DNA of 33,119 bases from Candidatus Gastranaerophilales bacterium (GTDB lineage Bacteria; Cyanobacteriota; Vampirovibrionia; Gastranaerophilales; Gastranaerophilaceae): the NCBI GenBank assembly GCA_023665105.1, contig JAMPEO010000003.1, positions 1-33,119 on the forward strand. Reading direction: 5' to 3'. Both the position numbers and the translations under genes were made by a program. Below, in pieces: positions 10,050-30,331 of the stretch (its first letter is position 1; every line of letters starts with the position of its first letter). A model generated the notes under the pieces. It saw only the letters and a program-made list of their open reading frames with translations, did no database searches and had not been told where the DNA came from.

Positions 10050-10748
10050 ATGAAAATCAGTACAGGTATCAGGTATTGTGAGCCGGGTATAAGGTCATCA
10101 ATCAGAGCAATGCAGGTTTCTAATGAATTGCTTGGCATTACAAATGATAACGTTTCAGGTTTTGATAAAGTAGGTTATCAAAGAAAAGAAGCAGTTGTTT
10201 CATCGTTTACAGAATTTCTCGGTGTACACGGTATATCAACAAACGTTGATGAACAGGTAGGTCGTATTCAAGTTTCAGAAAGACCGCTTGATATTGCGAT
10301 TGCAACTAAAGGCTATTTTCAAATCCAATCAAAAGATGGTGTAAGGCTTACCCGTGACGGACGTTTCAAGCTTGATAAAGATGGTTATTTATTATCATTA
10401 GAAGATGGTAATGTACTATCAGATAGTGGCGTACCAATCAGATTACCGTTTGTACCTGATGATGTTAAAGAAATTAAAGTCGACAGAAAAGGTCGTTTGA
10501 GTGTTTTCAATAGAGATGCTCGTAAATTGAACTATGTTGCAACGCTTGGCGTTGTTGATTCTTCAGGTATGGCAGTTATGAAACCTGATATCAAACAAGG
10601 TTATAACGAGTATTCGAACGTATCTCTTCAAAATGAGTTCTTGGCGGTAATGCCTACAATAAGAGCGTTTGAAGCTAACAGACAAGTATTTATTATGCAA
10701 AGTACGAACTTACAAAAGGCGATAAGCCAATTAGGTTCAGCATCTTAG
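10050..10748 (+). CDS. Flagellar rod protein, FlgF/FlgG family (first copy)
   Basis: An axial rod protein of 232 residues, exported through the flagellar type III apparatus (no signal peptide). The N-terminal helix region (IRSSIRAMQVSNELLGITNDN) replaces the usual NLANVNT-GFKR box with NDNVSGFDKVGYQRKE. The middle holds the FlgE/F/G domain (ERPLDIAIATKGYFQIQ, LTRDGRFKLDKDGYLLS). The C-terminus has the NVSLQNEFLAVMPTIRAFEA helix typical of rod and hook proteins. SD GAGAGGT precedes the ATG. It leads a four-gene plus-strand operon. I cannot decide between FlgF (proximal) and FlgG (distal), since it is divergent from both. Confidence 0.88.
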   Translation: MKISTGIRYCEPGIRSSIRAMQVSNELLGITNDNVSGFDKVGYQRKEAVVSSFTEFLGVHGISTNVDEQVGRIQVSERPLDIAIATKGYFQIQSKDGVRLTRDGRFKLDKDGYLLSLEDGNVLSDSGVPIRLPFVPDDVKEIKVDRKGRLSVFNRDARKLNYVATLGVVDSSGMAVMKPDIKQGYNEYSNVSLQNEFLAVMPTIRAFEANRQVFIMQSTNLQKAISQLGSAS

Positions 10749-10761
10749 GAGGGTTCCCATT

Positions 10762-11478
10762 ATGATGTTTAACGCACAGGCTATTGTAAGAAAAAGTATA
10801 AACAATGCCACAACACAATTTGATAAACTCGGTTATGTAGGTAACGATTTAGCCAACTATAACACATACGGTTATAAATCAATCAGATTTGAACAAATGT
10901 TGAGAGAAGACGGTTATGTCGGCGGTGCTCAAAGAACTGATTGCAAACAAGGTGCGGTAAGGGTTACAGAAAATCCTTATGACGTAGCAATAGAAGGTCA
11001 TGGATATATTCCTGTAACTTCTGAAGATGGTGAAGTTCAATATACCCGTGACGGTTCTTTTACAAAAGGTAAAGACGGTTATCTATACACTAAAGATGGC
11101 TGGCTTGTTGGCGGTGGTATAAAATTACCTGCTAACAACTATAAATTTACTATTAACCAAAATGGTGATGTATATACTTATGATGAAGCAGGTTCACTTC
11201 CTAAAAGAGTAGGTACTATTCCTTTGGTTCAGTTTGCTAATCCCGAAAGACTTGAGCAAGGGGTTAACAATAAAATGGTAGCAACAGAAGATTCAGGAGA
11301 ACCGCAGTTGGTTCAAAATCATCGTTCATTCAGACAAAACTGTATTGAAGCATCAAACGTTAATATCTATGCTTCTGTAAATGAAATGTTGAGATTGAAC
11401 GCATCAATGATTGCGAGTATGCGTCTTTTGAAAGTAGCTGATGATATGTATAACAAAGGCATAAATATCAGAGAATAA
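10762..11478 (+). CDS. Flagellar rod protein, FlgF/FlgG family (second copy)
   Basis: A second rod or hook-basal body protein of 238 residues. The N-terminal motif is better kept than in its neighbour (NDLANYNTYGYKSIRFEQML). It is followed by ENPYDVAIEGHGYIPV, YTRDGSFTKGKDGYLY and a C-terminal amphipathic helix (EASNVNIYASVNEMLRLNAS). Two adjacent ATGs (10762 and 10765) follow a strong AGGAGG. It starts 13 bp after the previous gene, so the two are co-translated, and together they probably fill the FlgF and FlgG places. Sequence identity between the two is low by eye, so this looks like an old duplication and not a recent one. Confidence 0.88.
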   Translation: MMFNAQAIVRKSINNATTQFDKLGYVGNDLANYNTYGYKSIRFEQMLREDGYVGGAQRTDCKQGAVRVTENPYDVAIEGHGYIPVTSEDGEVQYTRDGSFTKGKDGYLYTKDGWLVGGGIKLPANNYKFTINQNGDVYTYDEAGSLPKRVGTIPLVQFANPERLEQGVNNKMVATEDSGEPQLVQNHRSFRQNCIEASNVNIYASVNEMLRLNASMIASMRLLKVADDMYNKGINIRE

Positions 11479-12416: not shown

Positions 12417-12450
12417 GGTCAAGTACCCCCTACTTGACCTTTTTATTTTT
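12417..12450 (+). terminator. Terminator of the flagellar rod operon
   Basis: A perfect 9-bp stem GGTCAAGTA/TACTTGACC with loop CCCCC, then TTTTTATTTTT. Confidence 0.9.
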
Positions 12451-12481: not shown

Positions 12482-12674
12482 ATGCACGTTTAGTTATTGA
12501 CATAATACCTTTTGTAATACTACCTAATAAATCAAGGGCACTGTTTGAAACATTGCTGTTGACGTGTTCAAGTTTACTTTGGGCTTGATGACTTCTTAAA
12601 AGTATTTTTTGTCTTGTTGTTGCCATGAATGCCGGTGGTGTTGGTATCTTATTTGAAGCTAAAGTTTTATTCAT
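12480..12674 (-). CDS. Small protein of 64 residues, unknown
   Basis: I do not recognise this protein. The ATG at 12674 has a good SD (AAGGA, 7 nt spacing), which is the main reason to believe it. The product is basic and largely helical: a polar start with a proline pair (IPTPPAFM), a charged helix (RQKILLRSHQAQSKLEHVN) and an amphipathic end (LLGSITKGIMSITKRA) that could sit on a membrane surface. It has no signal peptide and no cysteines. It converges on the flagellar rod operon, with the terminator hairpins between them. A link to motility is possible only by location. Confidence 0.55.
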   Translation of the reverse strand: MNKTLASNKIPTPPAFMATTRQKILLRSHQAQSKLEHVNSNVSNSALDLLGSITKGIMSITKRA

Positions 12675-12878
12675 AGAATATCCTTAAATGATTTTATTAT
12701 TTATATCAAACATGCTAAAACAAAAAATTGCTATCAAATAGAAAAATTTACATATTTTAACAAAAGAAAACCTAGCTTTTTCAACAATAACCTTGTTTTG
12801 TTATGATATCATATATACAACCACAGAGGTTTTAAAAATATTCTTTACTCTCATAAAAACTTATGTTAATCTTGTTTT

Positions 12879-13020
12879 ATACTAATCTGCCAACTGGCGG
12901 GTTGTAATACGGGTATAATGTTTTTGTATCATACCCACAGCACGATACTCAGCGTGTTGGGATACATTTACAGATATCTGAAGGGGGATTGTATCTTTAT
13001 GATTGTTCCCTTTTCTTTTT
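12879..13020 (+). ncRNA. Candidate structured RNA or attenuator ending in a terminator
   Basis: A TATACT box at 12879-12884 could be a -10, but no clear -35 is seen. Downstream lie a stem GGGTAT/ATACCC (12911-12936), a stem CAGCACG/CGTGTTG with loop ATACTCAG (about 12937-12959) and a CAGATATCTG palindrome. A terminal hairpin GGGGA..TTCCC (12984-13010) is followed by TTTTCTTTTT. The GATAC at 12961-12965 can pair either with GTATC at 12926-12930 or with GTATC at 12991-12995, which lies inside the terminator hairpin, so alternative folds are possible. It resembles no RNA family I know (not SRP RNA, tmRNA, RNase P or TPP/B12 riboswitch). 6S RNA cannot be excluded by eye. Confidence 0.4.
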
Positions 13021-13055
13021 ATATAAAAATATTTTGTATTTTCTGTTAAAAATAC

Positions 13056-13083
13056 TTGTATTTTTTAATTATTTGTGTAGAAT
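13056..13083 (+). promoter_or_regulatory. Putative promoter of the SNF2 gene
   Basis: TTGTAT (13056-13061), 16 bp, TAGAAT (13078-13083), about 100 bp before the ATG. Confidence 0.4.
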
Positions 13084-13183
13084 AATATTAAAGGGCTGAG
13101 GGTTATTCAATTTTAGTGCCTTATGATGTTAGGAATAGCCATTTTATATTATTAAAAAACCCGAAAAGGATTGACTCAGTTAG

Positions 13184-16100
13184 ATGAGTAAAGTTTTTGA
13201 ATTTAATTACAAATTTATAAAAGATAATGCGTCTGCAGGTAGTTGGAGACGCGGATATGAATACTATAAAAAAGATATGCTGCTTGATTCTGCTCCTATC
13301 AAAAATTTTTACAAAGGTAGAGTTAAGGGGAATTTTCAGGATTATTACGCCACAGATTTAATTTTTAAGAAGACAAGTGTGGAAGCTCGTTGTAATTGCC
13401 CATTAAAAGAAGAATGGTGCAAACACTCTGTAGCTGTCGCACTAAAAGCTATTGATGAGCACGCTTATGAAGATTGGTTAGAAACAAAATATGGAACAGA
13501 GTTTGATTATCCCGATGAAAATACAGCGTTGACAGAAGTTCCTCAAGGAAACTATATTTTTCACTTCAATCCTAAACGTAGACAAAACTTCTTTTCAATT
13601 CTAATAAAAGATAGACATACCGGTAAGATTATCCGCTCATTAGAAAATATTTTGAGAGCATTGATTGAGGCTCAAAAGGTTGAAGGTGGATTTGAATTAA
13701 GCGAGGTTCAAAAGTCAGAACTTGCGGTATTCCATTTGATTTTGAAAATTGCAAGACAGGATAAAAAGGCGGGTTGGTATGATATTCCTATCACTAAATT
13801 TATGCCAATGTTCCCGTTATTAGCTCAAGTTGAAGAAGTTTTGGATGAAAAAACTAAACAAAGAATTAAATTTTTAGACAAACAATGGGACTTATCTCTT
13901 GATGTTAACGCAAATACAAATGGAACTTTATCTTTAGCACTATATTGGAACAGACCTGATAGTGATGAAGTTTATCCGTTTGAAGAGGTAAAATATTTTT
14001 CACGTCAACTAAAATGGGGACGATACAAAAATGTTATTTTCCCGATAAATGTTGCAATGAATGAACTTCCACAGTATATTATCAAATCAACATTTACGGA
14101 TTTGAAAGATTCTGAAGGCGGCAAGTTTATATATGAAGAATTGCCTAAAATCAGAGAAATAATGCCTGTTAATGTATCTGAACAGATTACTAAGTTAATG
14201 TTGGAAGAAAGACCACCTGTTAATGTTGTGACACTTGGTATTGATTATGACCAGTCATTAAAAGCAGAATTAGAATTTGAGTATGACGGAGTGAAAGTTC
14301 CTTATTCAAAACATGATGAGAAATCACCTTATGTTACAGTTACTAAAAAACAGGATGGTGAAGATTTTATTTATTGGATAAAAAGAAATTATCAACACGA
14401 ACAAGATGCTTATAGAATGCTTTTAGCTTGTAAGTTTGTTCCAATGCAGACTAATAATCTTGCATTAGAAAAAGAAACAGCCATTGATTTCTATAATTAT
14501 TATATGAAACAAGCTGGTGAAGGTTGGAGATTCGAAGAAAAAGACGATATGCAATTCTTTAAGCTTATGGAAGAACCTTTCACTATGTGTGCTAAGATTG
14601 ACTTCTGTGATGATGCGGTTGATGAATTTGAAATCCAATTATATGGTCGTGCCGGTGAAGAAGTTATTGACTTTGATACAATTTTTGAAACTATCCAAAA
14701 CGGTGAAAAATATAGCCGTGTCAGAAGTTTAGGTTTTGTTGAATATCCTGCACAAAATATCTATCAAATGATGAGATCATTCAACTCTTTTGATGCATAC
14801 AGGAACAATGAAAATAAATTCCGCATAAAATCATACAGAACAGGTCTTGTAAAAGAATTAGAAAATCTTGGCTTTGAACTTGTTATGAGTGAAAAATTCC
14901 AGAAATTCTGGGAACAAATCTCTACATTTTCAACTACAGAAACAACAGAATTACCAAAAGTTAATGCAGAATTCCGTGATTATCAGCTTAAAGGTTTCAG
15001 CTGGTTATGGTTTATGTATACATACGGTTTAAATGGTATTCTTGCTGATGATATGGGGCTTGGTAAAACATTACAGGCTTTGAGTTTACTTCAAAAGGCT
15101 AAAGAAGTTGATGGTCCTGAACCTACACTTGTTGTAGCTCCTACAACTGTTGTTTTCAACTGGGAATCTGAAATTGAAAAATTCACTCCTGATTTATCTT
15201 GTTTAAAATTGTCGGGTGTAGATAGAGCAAAATTATTCAAAGAAATTCCTAATCACGATATTGTTATTACAAGTTATGCATTGTTAAGACGTGATATAGC
15301 TAAATTTAGAAAATATAATTTCAGATATATTATTCTTGATGAATCTCAGAATATTAAGAATGCAACTTCTCAAACAGCTCAAGCCGTAAAAACGCTTAAT
15401 GCTACTCATAAGCTTGCATTATCAGGTACGCCTATTGAAAACAAACTCGAAGAATTATGGTCTGTATTTGATTTCTTAATGCCTGGATTCTTGTTTAGTA
15501 TGCCGGAATTTAACAGCAGATATGTTACACCTATTATGGAACGCCAAGACAAGACCGTTGAAAAACGTCTTAAACTTCAAATTTATCCGTTCATCTTACG
15601 CCGTATGAAACGTGACGTAGCTAAAGACCTACCGGATAAGGTTGAAAATATGGCATATTGTGAAATGACACCGGAACAAAAGGATTTCTATTTAGATGTT
15701 TTAGACAGCACGAAGGAAGAACTATTCAAGAGTATCGAAATGAATGGTTTGGAAAAGAGCAGAATGTCTATCTTCTCTGCGTTGCTTAGACTTCGTCAAA
15801 TCTGTTGTCACCCTAAACTTTATGATAAAGAACACGTTAAGGGTGTTATTCAATCCGGTAAATTTGAATACCTTAAAGGTATGCTTGAACAAATTATTGA
15901 AGAAAAACACAGGATACTTCTATTCAGCCAATTTGTTGATATGTTAGATATTATTAAAGGCTGGTTGGAAAGAAGCGGTATTGAGTATGAATATCTTACA
16001 GGTAAAACTAAAGATAGAAAAGCTGCAGTTGATAACTTCAACAATAATCCGAATGTTAAAATATTCCTTATCAGTTTGAAAGCCGGTGGTACAGGTTTAA

Positions 16101-16366
16101 ACCTTACCGGTGCGGATTATGTTATCCACTATGACCCTTGGTGGAACCCTGCTGTTGAAGACCAGGCTACTGACCGTGCTTATCGTATCGGACAAACTAA
16201 AAAAGTATTTGTATATAGAATCATTACTAAAAATACAGTTGAAGAAAAAATCCAAAAACTTAAAACAAGAAAACGTGACCTTGTTGACAGCGTAATTTCT
16301 GTTGATAGAAATATTACGAAGTCTTTAACTATGGAAGATATCAAAGAAATCTTCTCTGTAGATTAA
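13184..16366 (+). CDS. SWIM zinc-finger SNF2-family helicase
   Basis: A 1060-residue Swi2/Snf2-type DNA translocase. The N-terminus carries a SWIM zinc finger with exact CxCx6CxH spacing (C70, C72, C79, H81). Residues of about 100-590 form a long variable region (bacterial SNF2 helicase-associated type). The ATPase core has motif I [9 protein letters not shown] (621-629), motif II DESQ (719-722), motif III [13 protein letters not shown], and in the second lobe [30 protein letters not shown] and [11 protein letters not shown] (motif VI). Such proteins move on double-stranded DNA and may displace bound proteins or polymerase. The bacterial role is not settled. The SD (AAAAGGA) is about 13 nt from the ATG, further than usual. 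It is not next to methylase or nuclease genes, so a DISARM-like defence role is not supported. Confidence 0.92.
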   Translation: [1060 protein letters not shown]

Positions 16367-16575: not shown

Positions 16576-16842
16576 ATGGCAAACATTAAATCAGCAAAGA
16601 AAAGAGTTCTAATAGCAGAAGCAAACAGACAAAGAAACACAGCTTTCAAGTCTTCTATCAAAACTGCTGTTAAAAAAGTTCTTGCTTTAGCAGAAGGTGA
16701 AGATAAAGAAGCTTTAAATGCAGCATTATCTAAAGTTTATCAACTTTGTGACAAAGCTGTTTCTAAAGGTATTCTTCACAAAAATACAGCTGCTAGAAAA
16801 AAATCAAGACTTACTCTAGCTGTTAAAAAATTAGCTAAGTAA
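16576..16842 (+). CDS. rpsT: Ribosomal protein bS20
   Basis: Small-subunit protein S20, a helical bundle that binds 16S rRNA early in assembly. The 88-residue product has the family N-terminus MANIKSAKKRVLIAE, the basic helix RNTAFKSSIKTAVKKV and the C-terminal signature KGILHKNTAARKKSRLT. SD is AAAGGTGA. It is transcribed alone: a good promoter lies about 80 bp upstream and a strong terminator follows 22 bp after the stop. Confidence 0.97.
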   Translation: MANIKSAKKRVLIAEANRQRNTAFKSSIKTAVKKVLALAEGEDKEALNAALSKVYQLCDKAVSKGILHKNTAARKKSRLTLAVKKLAK

Positions 16843-16864
16843 TTGTTAGAATTATTAAGAGAGT

Positions 16865-16905
16865 ATAGCCGATAACTGAAATCAGTTATCGGCTATTTCG
16901 TTTTT
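16865..16905 (+). terminator. Terminator of rpsT
   Basis: A near-perfect 14- to 15-bp stem ATAGCCGATAACTGA/TCAGTTATCGGCTAT with a tiny loop, then TTTCGTTTTT. Confidence 0.92.
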
Positions 16906-16939
16906 ATAAGACTGGTATAAAAAGATAGATTTCAACAAA

Positions 16940-16968
16940 TTGCAATTACCACTGGTTCATAATAAAAT
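16940..16968 (+). promoter_or_regulatory. Promoter of the purD-like/phosphohexomutase operon
   Basis: TTGCAA (16940-16945), 17 bp, TAAAAT (16963-16968), 29 bp before the ATG. Confidence 0.6.
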
Positions 16969-28974: not shown

Positions 28975-29811
28975 ATGGGTTATAAAATTTTATCAAAAAA
29001 AGAATTGTGTCCTAATCAGTATGAAATAACTATTGATGCTCCTTACGTTGTAAGAAACGCAAGAGCAGGTCAATTTATTATTTTCAGAGCTGAAGAAAAC
29101 GGGGAAAGAGTTCCTCTAACTATTGCTGATGTTAATAAAGAAAAAGGTGAATTAACATTAGTATTTATGGCAGTAGGTTATTCTACAAAGAAATTAGCAG
29201 CATTAAATGTTGGTGACGAACTTGTTGACCTTGTTGGTCCATTAGGAAAACCAACCCATATAGAAAACTATGGTACTGCAGTATGTATTGCCGGAGGTTA
29301 TGGAGCAGCACCTTGCTATTTAATTGCTAAAGCTCTTAAAGATGCAGGCAATAAAGTTTACATGATTATGGGTGCAAGAACAAAAGACCTTATCTTCTGG
29401 CAAGACAAAATGAAAGATGCTTGCACTGAATTATACATTACAACAGATGACGGTTCTTTAGGTATTAAAGGATTTGGTACTACCGTTATGAAAGAAATTA
29501 TGGACAGAGAAAAGGTTGATTATGCTATTGCAGTAGGTCCTATGCCTATGATGAGAGCAGTTGCAGAACTAACAAGAGGAACAGGAATAAAAACAGAAGC
29601 ATCCATGAACCCAATTATGGTTGATGGCACAGGAATGTGTGGTGCTTGTCGTTTAACCGTTGGCGGAGAAACAAAGTTCGCATGCGTTGACGGACCTGAT
29701 TTTGATGCTCATAAAATTGATTTTGATGAAGTTATCAATAGAACAAGAATCTACAAAGATGAAGAGAAAAAACGCAGTGAAAATTGCAATCTTTTAAAAG
29801 CAGGTTCTTAG
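28975..29811 (+). CDS. NfnA/SudB-like FAD/NAD-binding protein (sulfide dehydrogenase/NfnAB small subunit type)
   Basis: A 278-residue ferredoxin-NADP-reductase-like flavoprotein. ATG 28975 has the SD AAAGGA. The longer reading starts upstream of the promoter's likely +1. Domains: FAD-binding barrel (1-95, PLTIADVN), NAD-binding fold (about 96-215, AVCIAGGYGAAPCYLIAKAL) and a [2Fe-2S] cysteine motif at the end (GTGMCGACRLTVGGETKFAC). The MVDGTGMCGAC motif is that of NfnA/SudB, also seen in PyrK. The catalytic large subunit (NfnB, GltD-like) is not next to it, so a partner encoded elsewhere is needed for electron bifurcation, or the protein works alone. It stands as a single-gene unit between promoter and terminator. 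Confidence 0.9.
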   Translation: MGYKILSKKELCPNQYEITIDAPYVVRNARAGQFIIFRAEENGERVPLTIADVNKEKGELTLVFMAVGYSTKKLAALNVGDELVDLVGPLGKPTHIENYGTAVCIAGGYGAAPCYLIAKALKDAGNKVYMIMGARTKDLIFWQDKMKDACTELYITTDDGSLGIKGFGTTVMKEIMDREKVDYAIAVGPMPMMRAVAELTRGTGIKTEASMNPIMVDGTGMCGACRLTVGGETKFACVDGPDFDAHKIDFDEVINRTRIYKDEEKKRSENCNLLKAGS

Positions 29812-29834
29812 TCTGAAATACAATAATAACTAAC

Positions 29835-29862
29835 AAAAAGCCCGATATAAATCGGGCTTTTT
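29835..29862 (+). terminator. Terminator of the NfnA/SudB-like gene
   Basis: A 12-bp perfect stem AAAAAGCCCGAT/ATCGGGCTTTTT with loop ATAA. Confidence 0.92.
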
Positions 29863-29959
29863 GTATTAAAATATGTAACAATATCTATAACATGACAAAA
29901 TAAAACACAAATTTTTGAATTTCGTTGTTTTAAAGAGAGAGTAGGAAATTTGTGTCACA

Positions 29960-30331
29960 ATGGAAAACAGTACTGATATAAAAAAAGACCAAATATTCAA
30001 GAACATTAGGTTCTATTATATGCCCGTTCCGTTCGGGCTTCCTATGTATGATCCGTATAATACAGGACCAATGTCAGAGCCTATTCTATCTCCTGTAGGC
30101 CCGCCTATTGCTCCGAGAAGAAATCCATATTATCCAAAACCTACAAATCCGTTTATAAATCCATATTCAACCCAAATGCGGACAGCAATGCGTTCTGCAT
30201 ATCTCCCGCCTGCACCATCTTATGGTATGGGAGGGATGGGATGCCCTCCGCCACGTGGGGGAATGCCGCCTATGGGACCGCCTCCAATGGGACCAATGGG
30301 AGGACCACCAATGGGTCCAAGAGCCTTTTAA
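29960..30331 (+). CDS. Pro/Gly/Met-rich protein, unknown
   Basis: A 123-residue protein that I cannot place. The first 20 residues are charged (MENSTDIKKDQIFKNIRFYY). Residues of about 20-85 are rich in Pro, Tyr, Asn and Arg (PIAPRRNPYYPKPTNPFINP). The end is a low-complexity Gly-Met-Pro array (GMPPMGPPPMGPMGGPPMGP). It lacks a signal peptide. The SD is poor (TAGGAAA is about 13 nt away). Such proline-rich tails often self-assemble or bind other proteins. It stands alone between a terminator and the dnaJ-like gene. The long uninterrupted frame in a compositionally biased stretch supports a gene, but the function is open. Confidence 0.6.
   Translation: MENSTDIKKDQIFKNIRFYYMPVPFGLPMYDPYNTGPMSEPILSPVGPPIAPRRNPYYPKPTNPFINPYSTQMRTAMRSAYLPPAPSYGMGGMGCPPPRGGMPPMGPPPMGPMGGPPMGPRAF

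Follow-up and report, generated by a model that had tools for sequence, protein, structure and literature searches.

A candidate orphan small-RNA unit upstream of an SNF2-family helicase gene in a Gastranaerophilales genome

The intergenic element at 12879-13020, which lies between a group of flagellar genes and an SNF2-family helicase gene, is read here, with a probability of about 0.5, as an orphan, lineage-restricted small-RNA transcription unit, a candidate whose function is unproven. Its strand-specific fold, its terminator-like end, the absence of matching families or relatives and the presence of a separate promoter-like site for the SNF2 gene are direct results of the computations. The initial annotation had left a choice between a free small RNA and an attenuator; the former is the better supported, by the strand-specific fold, the terminator-like end, a promoter-like site and the lack of an Rfam family, while the attenuator is not supported and the claim of a functional RNA is unproven, because no relatives were found on which covariation could be examined.

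The window, that is, the whole stretch of 33,119 nt that was analysed, is a contig (C168) of a genome of 1.75 Mb in 234 contigs, estimated as 84.9% complete. Relatives of its SNF2 protein at 75-91% identity come mostly from contigs whose titles read Gastranaerophilales, Melainabacteria or uncultured gut bacteria, which places the genome itself in Gastranaerophilales. Upstream of the element there are flgF/flgG-like, flgB-like and flgC genes, and a pattern scan placed a strong terminator-like site at 12417-12439, 3' of the flagellar genes. Given this terminator-like site and the conserved SNF2 promoter-like site downstream, the stretch between them is left as a unit of its own, with the following features:

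12483-12674, minus strand: open reading frame of 64 aa, between the flagellar terminator-like site and the element
12844-12872, plus strand: promoter-like site TTTACT-17-TG.TAATCT (extended TG), predicted start near 12879
12879-13020, plus strand: candidate small RNA of about 140 nt, predicted from fold tests and hairpin analysis
12884-12903, plus strand: hairpin H1, loop AACT, with two U-G pairs that exist in the plus-strand RNA only
12911-12936, plus strand: hairpin H2, GGGTAT/ATACCC, in the local fold
12938-12959, plus strand: hairpin H3, CAGCACG/CGTGTTG, loop ATACTCAG, in both alternative folds
12960-12979, plus strand: linker, single-stranded in the local fold, from sequence and fold
12980-13020, plus strand: intrinsic-terminator-like hairpin H4 (12980-13015) with a T-rich tail

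In the proposed unit, RNA polymerase would use the site at 12844-12872 and start near 12879, and the RNA of about 140 nt would fold into three hairpins and a linker, a fourth hairpin and a U-run then stopping transcription near 13017. The unit would not feed SNF2, whose own promoter-like site lies about 40 nt beyond, and the RNA would be confined to a single species or a narrow lineage. If active, it may be a small RNA of the trans-acting or antisense type that works through its loops and linker. We infer that the RNA is transcribed, with the ends given above, and that it is stable; any target is speculative.

Fold and transcription signals of the element

The description of the stretch as about 140 nt with several stems, ending in a hairpin plus T-run, was borne out by folding and by shuffled controls. 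From 12879 to 13022 the minimum free energy is -45.6 kcal/mol, compared with a shuffle mean of -29.2 (z -5.24; none of 200 shuffles as good), and the element has the lowest z among 944 windows of 140 nt taken from both strands (-6.84, 20 shuffles), terminator regions elsewhere in the window reaching -5 to -6 in that scan. A test with 400 shuffles of 12884-13022 gave z -4.2 on the plus strand (-43.7 kcal/mol) and -2.87 on the minus strand (-30.5 kcal/mol), and after removal of the terminator hairpin the plus strand still gave z -3.1, with 3 of the 400 shuffles as good. The excess of fold stability is thus firm, and its magnitude varies with the shuffle used. G-U pairs, which exist on one strand only, make up 7 of the 43 pairs of the fold, and therefore the fold belongs to a plus-strand RNA. 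A stability greater than composition predicts, on one strand, is what a stand-alone small RNA should display. Fold z values below -5 were also seen at 16801-16940, just 3' of the gene for ribosomal protein S20, and at 29751-29960.

The architecture is a row of four hairpins, the last of which resembles an intrinsic terminator. H1 is the first to fold in a series of growing transcripts and then persists, although shortened in one prefix state. Two near-isoenergetic folds were obtained, a full-length one with a long-range helix (-43.7 kcal/mol) and a local one (-41.8 kcal/mol); in the former, pairing of 12911-12916 with 12974-12979 replaces H2 and is better by 1.9 kcal/mol. H1, H3 and the terminator stem are retained in both. 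The linker holds the sequence GATAC at 12961-12965 and most of a palindrome, CAGATATCTG (12971-12980). H4 consists of a stem of 9 pairs, GAAGGGGGA/TTCCCTTTT, around a large structured loop (-13.7 kcal/mol alone), and together with the T-run it provides the intrinsic terminator expected of a stand-alone small RNA; it is absent from the output of a simple terminator pattern scan, the rule of which admits only loops of 3-8.

The promoter-like site at 12844-12872, a consensus match, ranked 54 among 33083 plus-strand positions scored with a sigma70 matrix, and the promoter-like site of SNF2, with a similar score, ranked 72 in the same scan. Another site, TTTTCA-18-TG.TATGAT at 12778-12807, ranked 18 and would yield a longer RNA. 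At a stricter scan threshold the site at 12844-12872 was absent from the promoter list. The promoter-like and terminator-like signals stand in register around the element.

Searches for relatives and the case for non-functional DNA

The initial annotation had proposed conservation in relatives as a test, and the outcome was negative: no convincing relative appeared in 7 congeners, 98 relatives or 383 family genomes. At the DNA level, matches to the core of the element never exceeded 30 nt in the 382 other genomes of the family, two candidates being scored per genome. Seven family genomes had core matches of 19-30 nt, all of them to the A+T-rich section near 12901-12936 and, on visual inspection, mostly within reading frames; these were set aside as chance. 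A search based on the flanks, which are A+T-rich, again with two candidates per genome, was uninformative for the core. Plasmids, phages and, with one exact 19-mer, viral contigs yielded only short chance matches.

Covariance models built from the single sequence, which are insensitive, were run over three sets of genomes. Among 98 genomes, 11 gave a match, counting the one that holds the element itself, and none of the seven congeners had one at E up to 1; the matches in G022, G066, G011, G042 and G061 had E 0.4-1. The search of the genus returned matches in only three of the seven congeners, all with E above 1. In 383 genomes, with eight candidates scored per genome, four other genomes matched at E 0.016-0.095, which is within chance for so many genomes. 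G136 and G311 are among the weaker matches of the genus and 383-genome searches. The best match beyond the element itself (G051, E 7.8e-4) has two palindromes only in common with it, and was rejected as the 3' flank of a gene, where the middle hairpins are absent and only an unrelated palindrome plus a terminator-like hairpin occur. The matches in G058, G063, G065 and G099 appear by eye to overlap coding sequence or the ends of it. At this sampling the element is, as judged from sequence searches, an orphan. Missing conservation is common for young small RNAs.

The main rival to a small-RNA unit is that the stretch is non-functional intergenic DNA, the leftover of a decayed gene or of a rearrangement, which folds well by chance and has a terminator-like end. 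This is a possible reading, if a doubtful one. It accords with the finding of the element in one genome only among those searched and with a rearranged neighbourhood, in which the DNA upstream of the SNF2 promoter-like site differs from congener to congener and the small ORF occurs elsewhere in four congeners. The core also has coding-like composition, its G+C reaching 0.39 per 100 nt, the level of coding DNA, compared with 0.18-0.25 in the flanks, and three of the six frames are open across much of the element. However, none of these three frames matched a Pfam family, their only PHROG match had E 0.12, and the one frame searched against plasmids had no match to a plasmid-encoded protein. A relic is further opposed by the lowest fold z of the 944 windows, by the strong strand asymmetry and by promoter and terminator signals that lie in register.

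As to the small ORF itself (12483-12674, minus strand), it found no match in Pfam or NCBIfam, and by eye it carries the motif PPAFMATTRQKI. Its relatives in four of the seven congeners, at 37-47% identity and in differing contexts, have a similar A+T-rich motif upstream, which is TTTTAGCATGTTTGATATAA in the window. In one locus (L133, genome G002) the DNA 3' of the small ORF contains a TTTACCTCACACGCAGGGGTAAATGA unit in tandem copies.

The SNF2 gene, its promoter-like site and its leaders

The features of the helicase gene downstream of the element are:

13056-13083, plus strand: SNF2 promoter-like site TTGTAT-16-TG.TAGAAT, conserved in 8 of 8 genus genomes
13088-13183, plus strand: SNF2 leader, genus version, with AAGGGC..GCCTT, GGTTATTC/GGAATAGCC and AACCCGAAAAGGA before the ATG
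13184-16366, plus strand: SNF2-family helicase gene, 1060 aa, Pfam PF00176 (E 2.6e-76)

An SNF2 orthologue is present in all eight genus genomes, which have in common the promoter-like site and a leader some 85-130 nt long (13056-13183 in the window). The DNA 5' of the promoter-like site differs in every congener seen, the visible sequence 5' of the ATG being 311 nt in L210 and 228 nt in L211, where the position equivalent to the element is partly visible. On the strength of this conservation, SNF2 transcription appears to start from a separate site, about 40 nt past the terminator of the element.

This arrangement bears on the proposal that the element regulates the SNF2 gene as a transcription attenuator or a riboswitch, which we consider improbable. 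A terminator-like hairpin does lie upstream of SNF2 in the same orientation, and the two near-isoenergetic folds could in principle suit a switch. The initial annotation had suggested that GATAC at 12961-12965 pairs with either of two GTATC segments and thereby toggles termination. The letters are right, GTATC occurring at 12926-12930 and 12991-12995 (a second GATAC is present at 12944-12948), and pairing with 12926-12930 is predicted at 0.37-0.94 per pair. Pairing with 12991-12995, however, has a probability of 0.0 at all five pairs, and it would leave the basal stem of the terminator closed, because this GTATC sits in the apical part of the hairpin. Moreover, in 58.8% of 500 shuffles one or more 5-mers had at least two complementary partners, so that the two-partner pattern is at chance level. 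The GATAC/GTATC switch of termination was therefore rejected for zero occupancy and a chance-level pattern; mutually exclusive terminator and antiterminator folds were not found, the terminator stem being kept in the alternative folds listed. An attenuator is also at odds with the conserved promoter-like site and leader 3' of the terminator, and with the seven of seven congeners that have SNF2 with a leader and no convincing match to the element.

In the genus version of the leader, AAGGGC/GCCCTT and GGTTATT/AATAACC are possible pairings, with 97.9% of cells paired and no double changes in eight sequences, and they would allow a possible pseudoknot. Elsewhere in the family, within Gastranaerophilales, SNF2 orthologues have a structured leader (loci L027-L077 and L178-L204, for example L067:4908-4988), in which a helix P1, AAGGG/CCCTT, encloses a hairpin P2, TATAGA/TCTATA, accompanied by a conserved CCGAARTTTGTA and then by AAAGAAAGAGATACTC before the ATG. 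The model R2 of this leader matched 34 of 64 sources (the window and 63 loci) at E < 0.001, 32 of these 34 being the sequences from which it was built. Set A2 (32 sequences) has 91.9% of its cells paired, and double changes occur in 7 of the 12 pairs; shuffled versions averaged 2.5 such pairs, and none of 500 reached the observed number. In the model-fitted set A5, of 42 sequences (41 distinct), the paired share is 92.7% and double changes again occur in 7 of the 12 pairs, a number reached by one of 500 shuffles. When the partners were slid as a control, the paired share fell to 20-66%, although a slide of +2 still gave seven double-change pairs. Twelve loci of the family leader searched against Rfam had no match at the gathering score.

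Across 146 genomes R2 found one match each in 28, at E up to 0.01, and 27 of the 28 lie directly upstream of SNF2, the exception being L205 (E 0.0076); this search scored 32 of about 600-2400 first-look candidates per genome, so that copies at other genes may be missed. R2 had no match in the window at E up to 5 among the 64 sources, and its motif was found in none of the eight genomes of the window's own genus. A stem ACTC/GAGT at the start codon of the SNF2 leaders was dropped, with 18 of 59 fully paired compared with 11.8 expected from shuffled upstream sequence.

As a tentative wider reading, the SNF2 mRNAs in a large part of the family would begin with an uncatalogued, gene-specific cis-regulatory RNA, for which the genus of the window swapped in a diverged leader, and the orphan RNA might act in trans on SNF2 or flagellar mRNAs. 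The conserved SNF2 leader is a stronger lead for follow-up than the orphan element. If true, it would mean RNA-level control of a chromatin-remodeller-like helicase in bacteria, and it can be tested by covariation today, which makes it the more useful outcome of the two. The analysis also separates two things that a reading of the raw sequence would merge, namely an orphan hairpin unit and an SNF2 leader about 70 nt farther on.

Possible targets and comparison with known systems

With respect to targets of the proposed small RNA, the linker (12959-12981) was screened against the 32 gene starts of the window. Its best pairing, -17.5 kcal/mol, is with 10062-10085 at the beginning of the first flagellar gene (flgF-like, 10050), followed by -15.6 kcal/mol at the gene start at 10762. 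An energy of -17.5 kcal/mol was equalled by 18 of 3966 random stretches, or about 13% by chance for 32 starts, and the predicted pairing with the first flagellar gene is thus a weak lead only, if the best one for a target. By eye, the H3 loop UACUCA complements the SNF2 start UGAGUA over 6 nt. The sequence TGAGT occurs in 2 of the 32 gene starts.

Two further explanations fare worse. A small protein gene, in the form of an ATG-initiated frame of 43 codons (12918-13046) with a hydrophobic end and a structured mRNA of the sort known from type I toxins, is very unlikely: hydrophobic residues speak for it, whereas the frame crosses the terminator-like hairpin and the T-run, lacks an obvious ribosome-binding site on visual inspection and, as a 43-aa product, found no match in Pfam. 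The size and compact fold of the element might suggest a diverged representative of an established RNA family, for example 6S RNA, which the initial annotation had named as a check, but this is the least credible explanation of all, since Rfam gave no match at the gathering score (only two irrelevant weak ones at E up to 5) and the genome has a 6S-like locus on another contig. The separate 6S-like match (G000:C218:2561-2744) is full-length and scores 36 bits (E 7.4e-6), short of the 46.4 cut-off; counting this genome, 31 of the 38 genomes examined have such a match. Scores are similarly low in genomes of the same genus, and other families of the order exceed the cut-off. 6S looks divergent in family f1.

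If transcribed, the element would add a lineage-specific small-RNA candidate in Gastranaerophilales; of the papers found on small RNAs or riboswitches in this group or in Melainabacteria, none concerned such an RNA, as judged from titles and the opening parts of abstracts.

Compared with known systems, the element shares with 6S RNA (RF00013) its size class and intergenic position. It differs in being a row of hairpins instead of a single long hairpin with a central bubble, and 6S RNA was rejected for lack of a match to the RF00013 covariance model at the element. Like attenuators and terminator-type riboswitches, it is a structured RNA with a terminator-like hairpin at its end and a gene downstream, whereas here a conserved promoter-like site belonging to the gene itself lies downstream, and no fold rivals the terminator stem. 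Small RNAs that are intergenic, orphan and closed by an intrinsic terminator are a recognised general kind. The element, a candidate for which no convincing relative was found, resembles them in its length of about 140 nt, its promoter-like and terminator-like ends and its hairpins with accessible loops.
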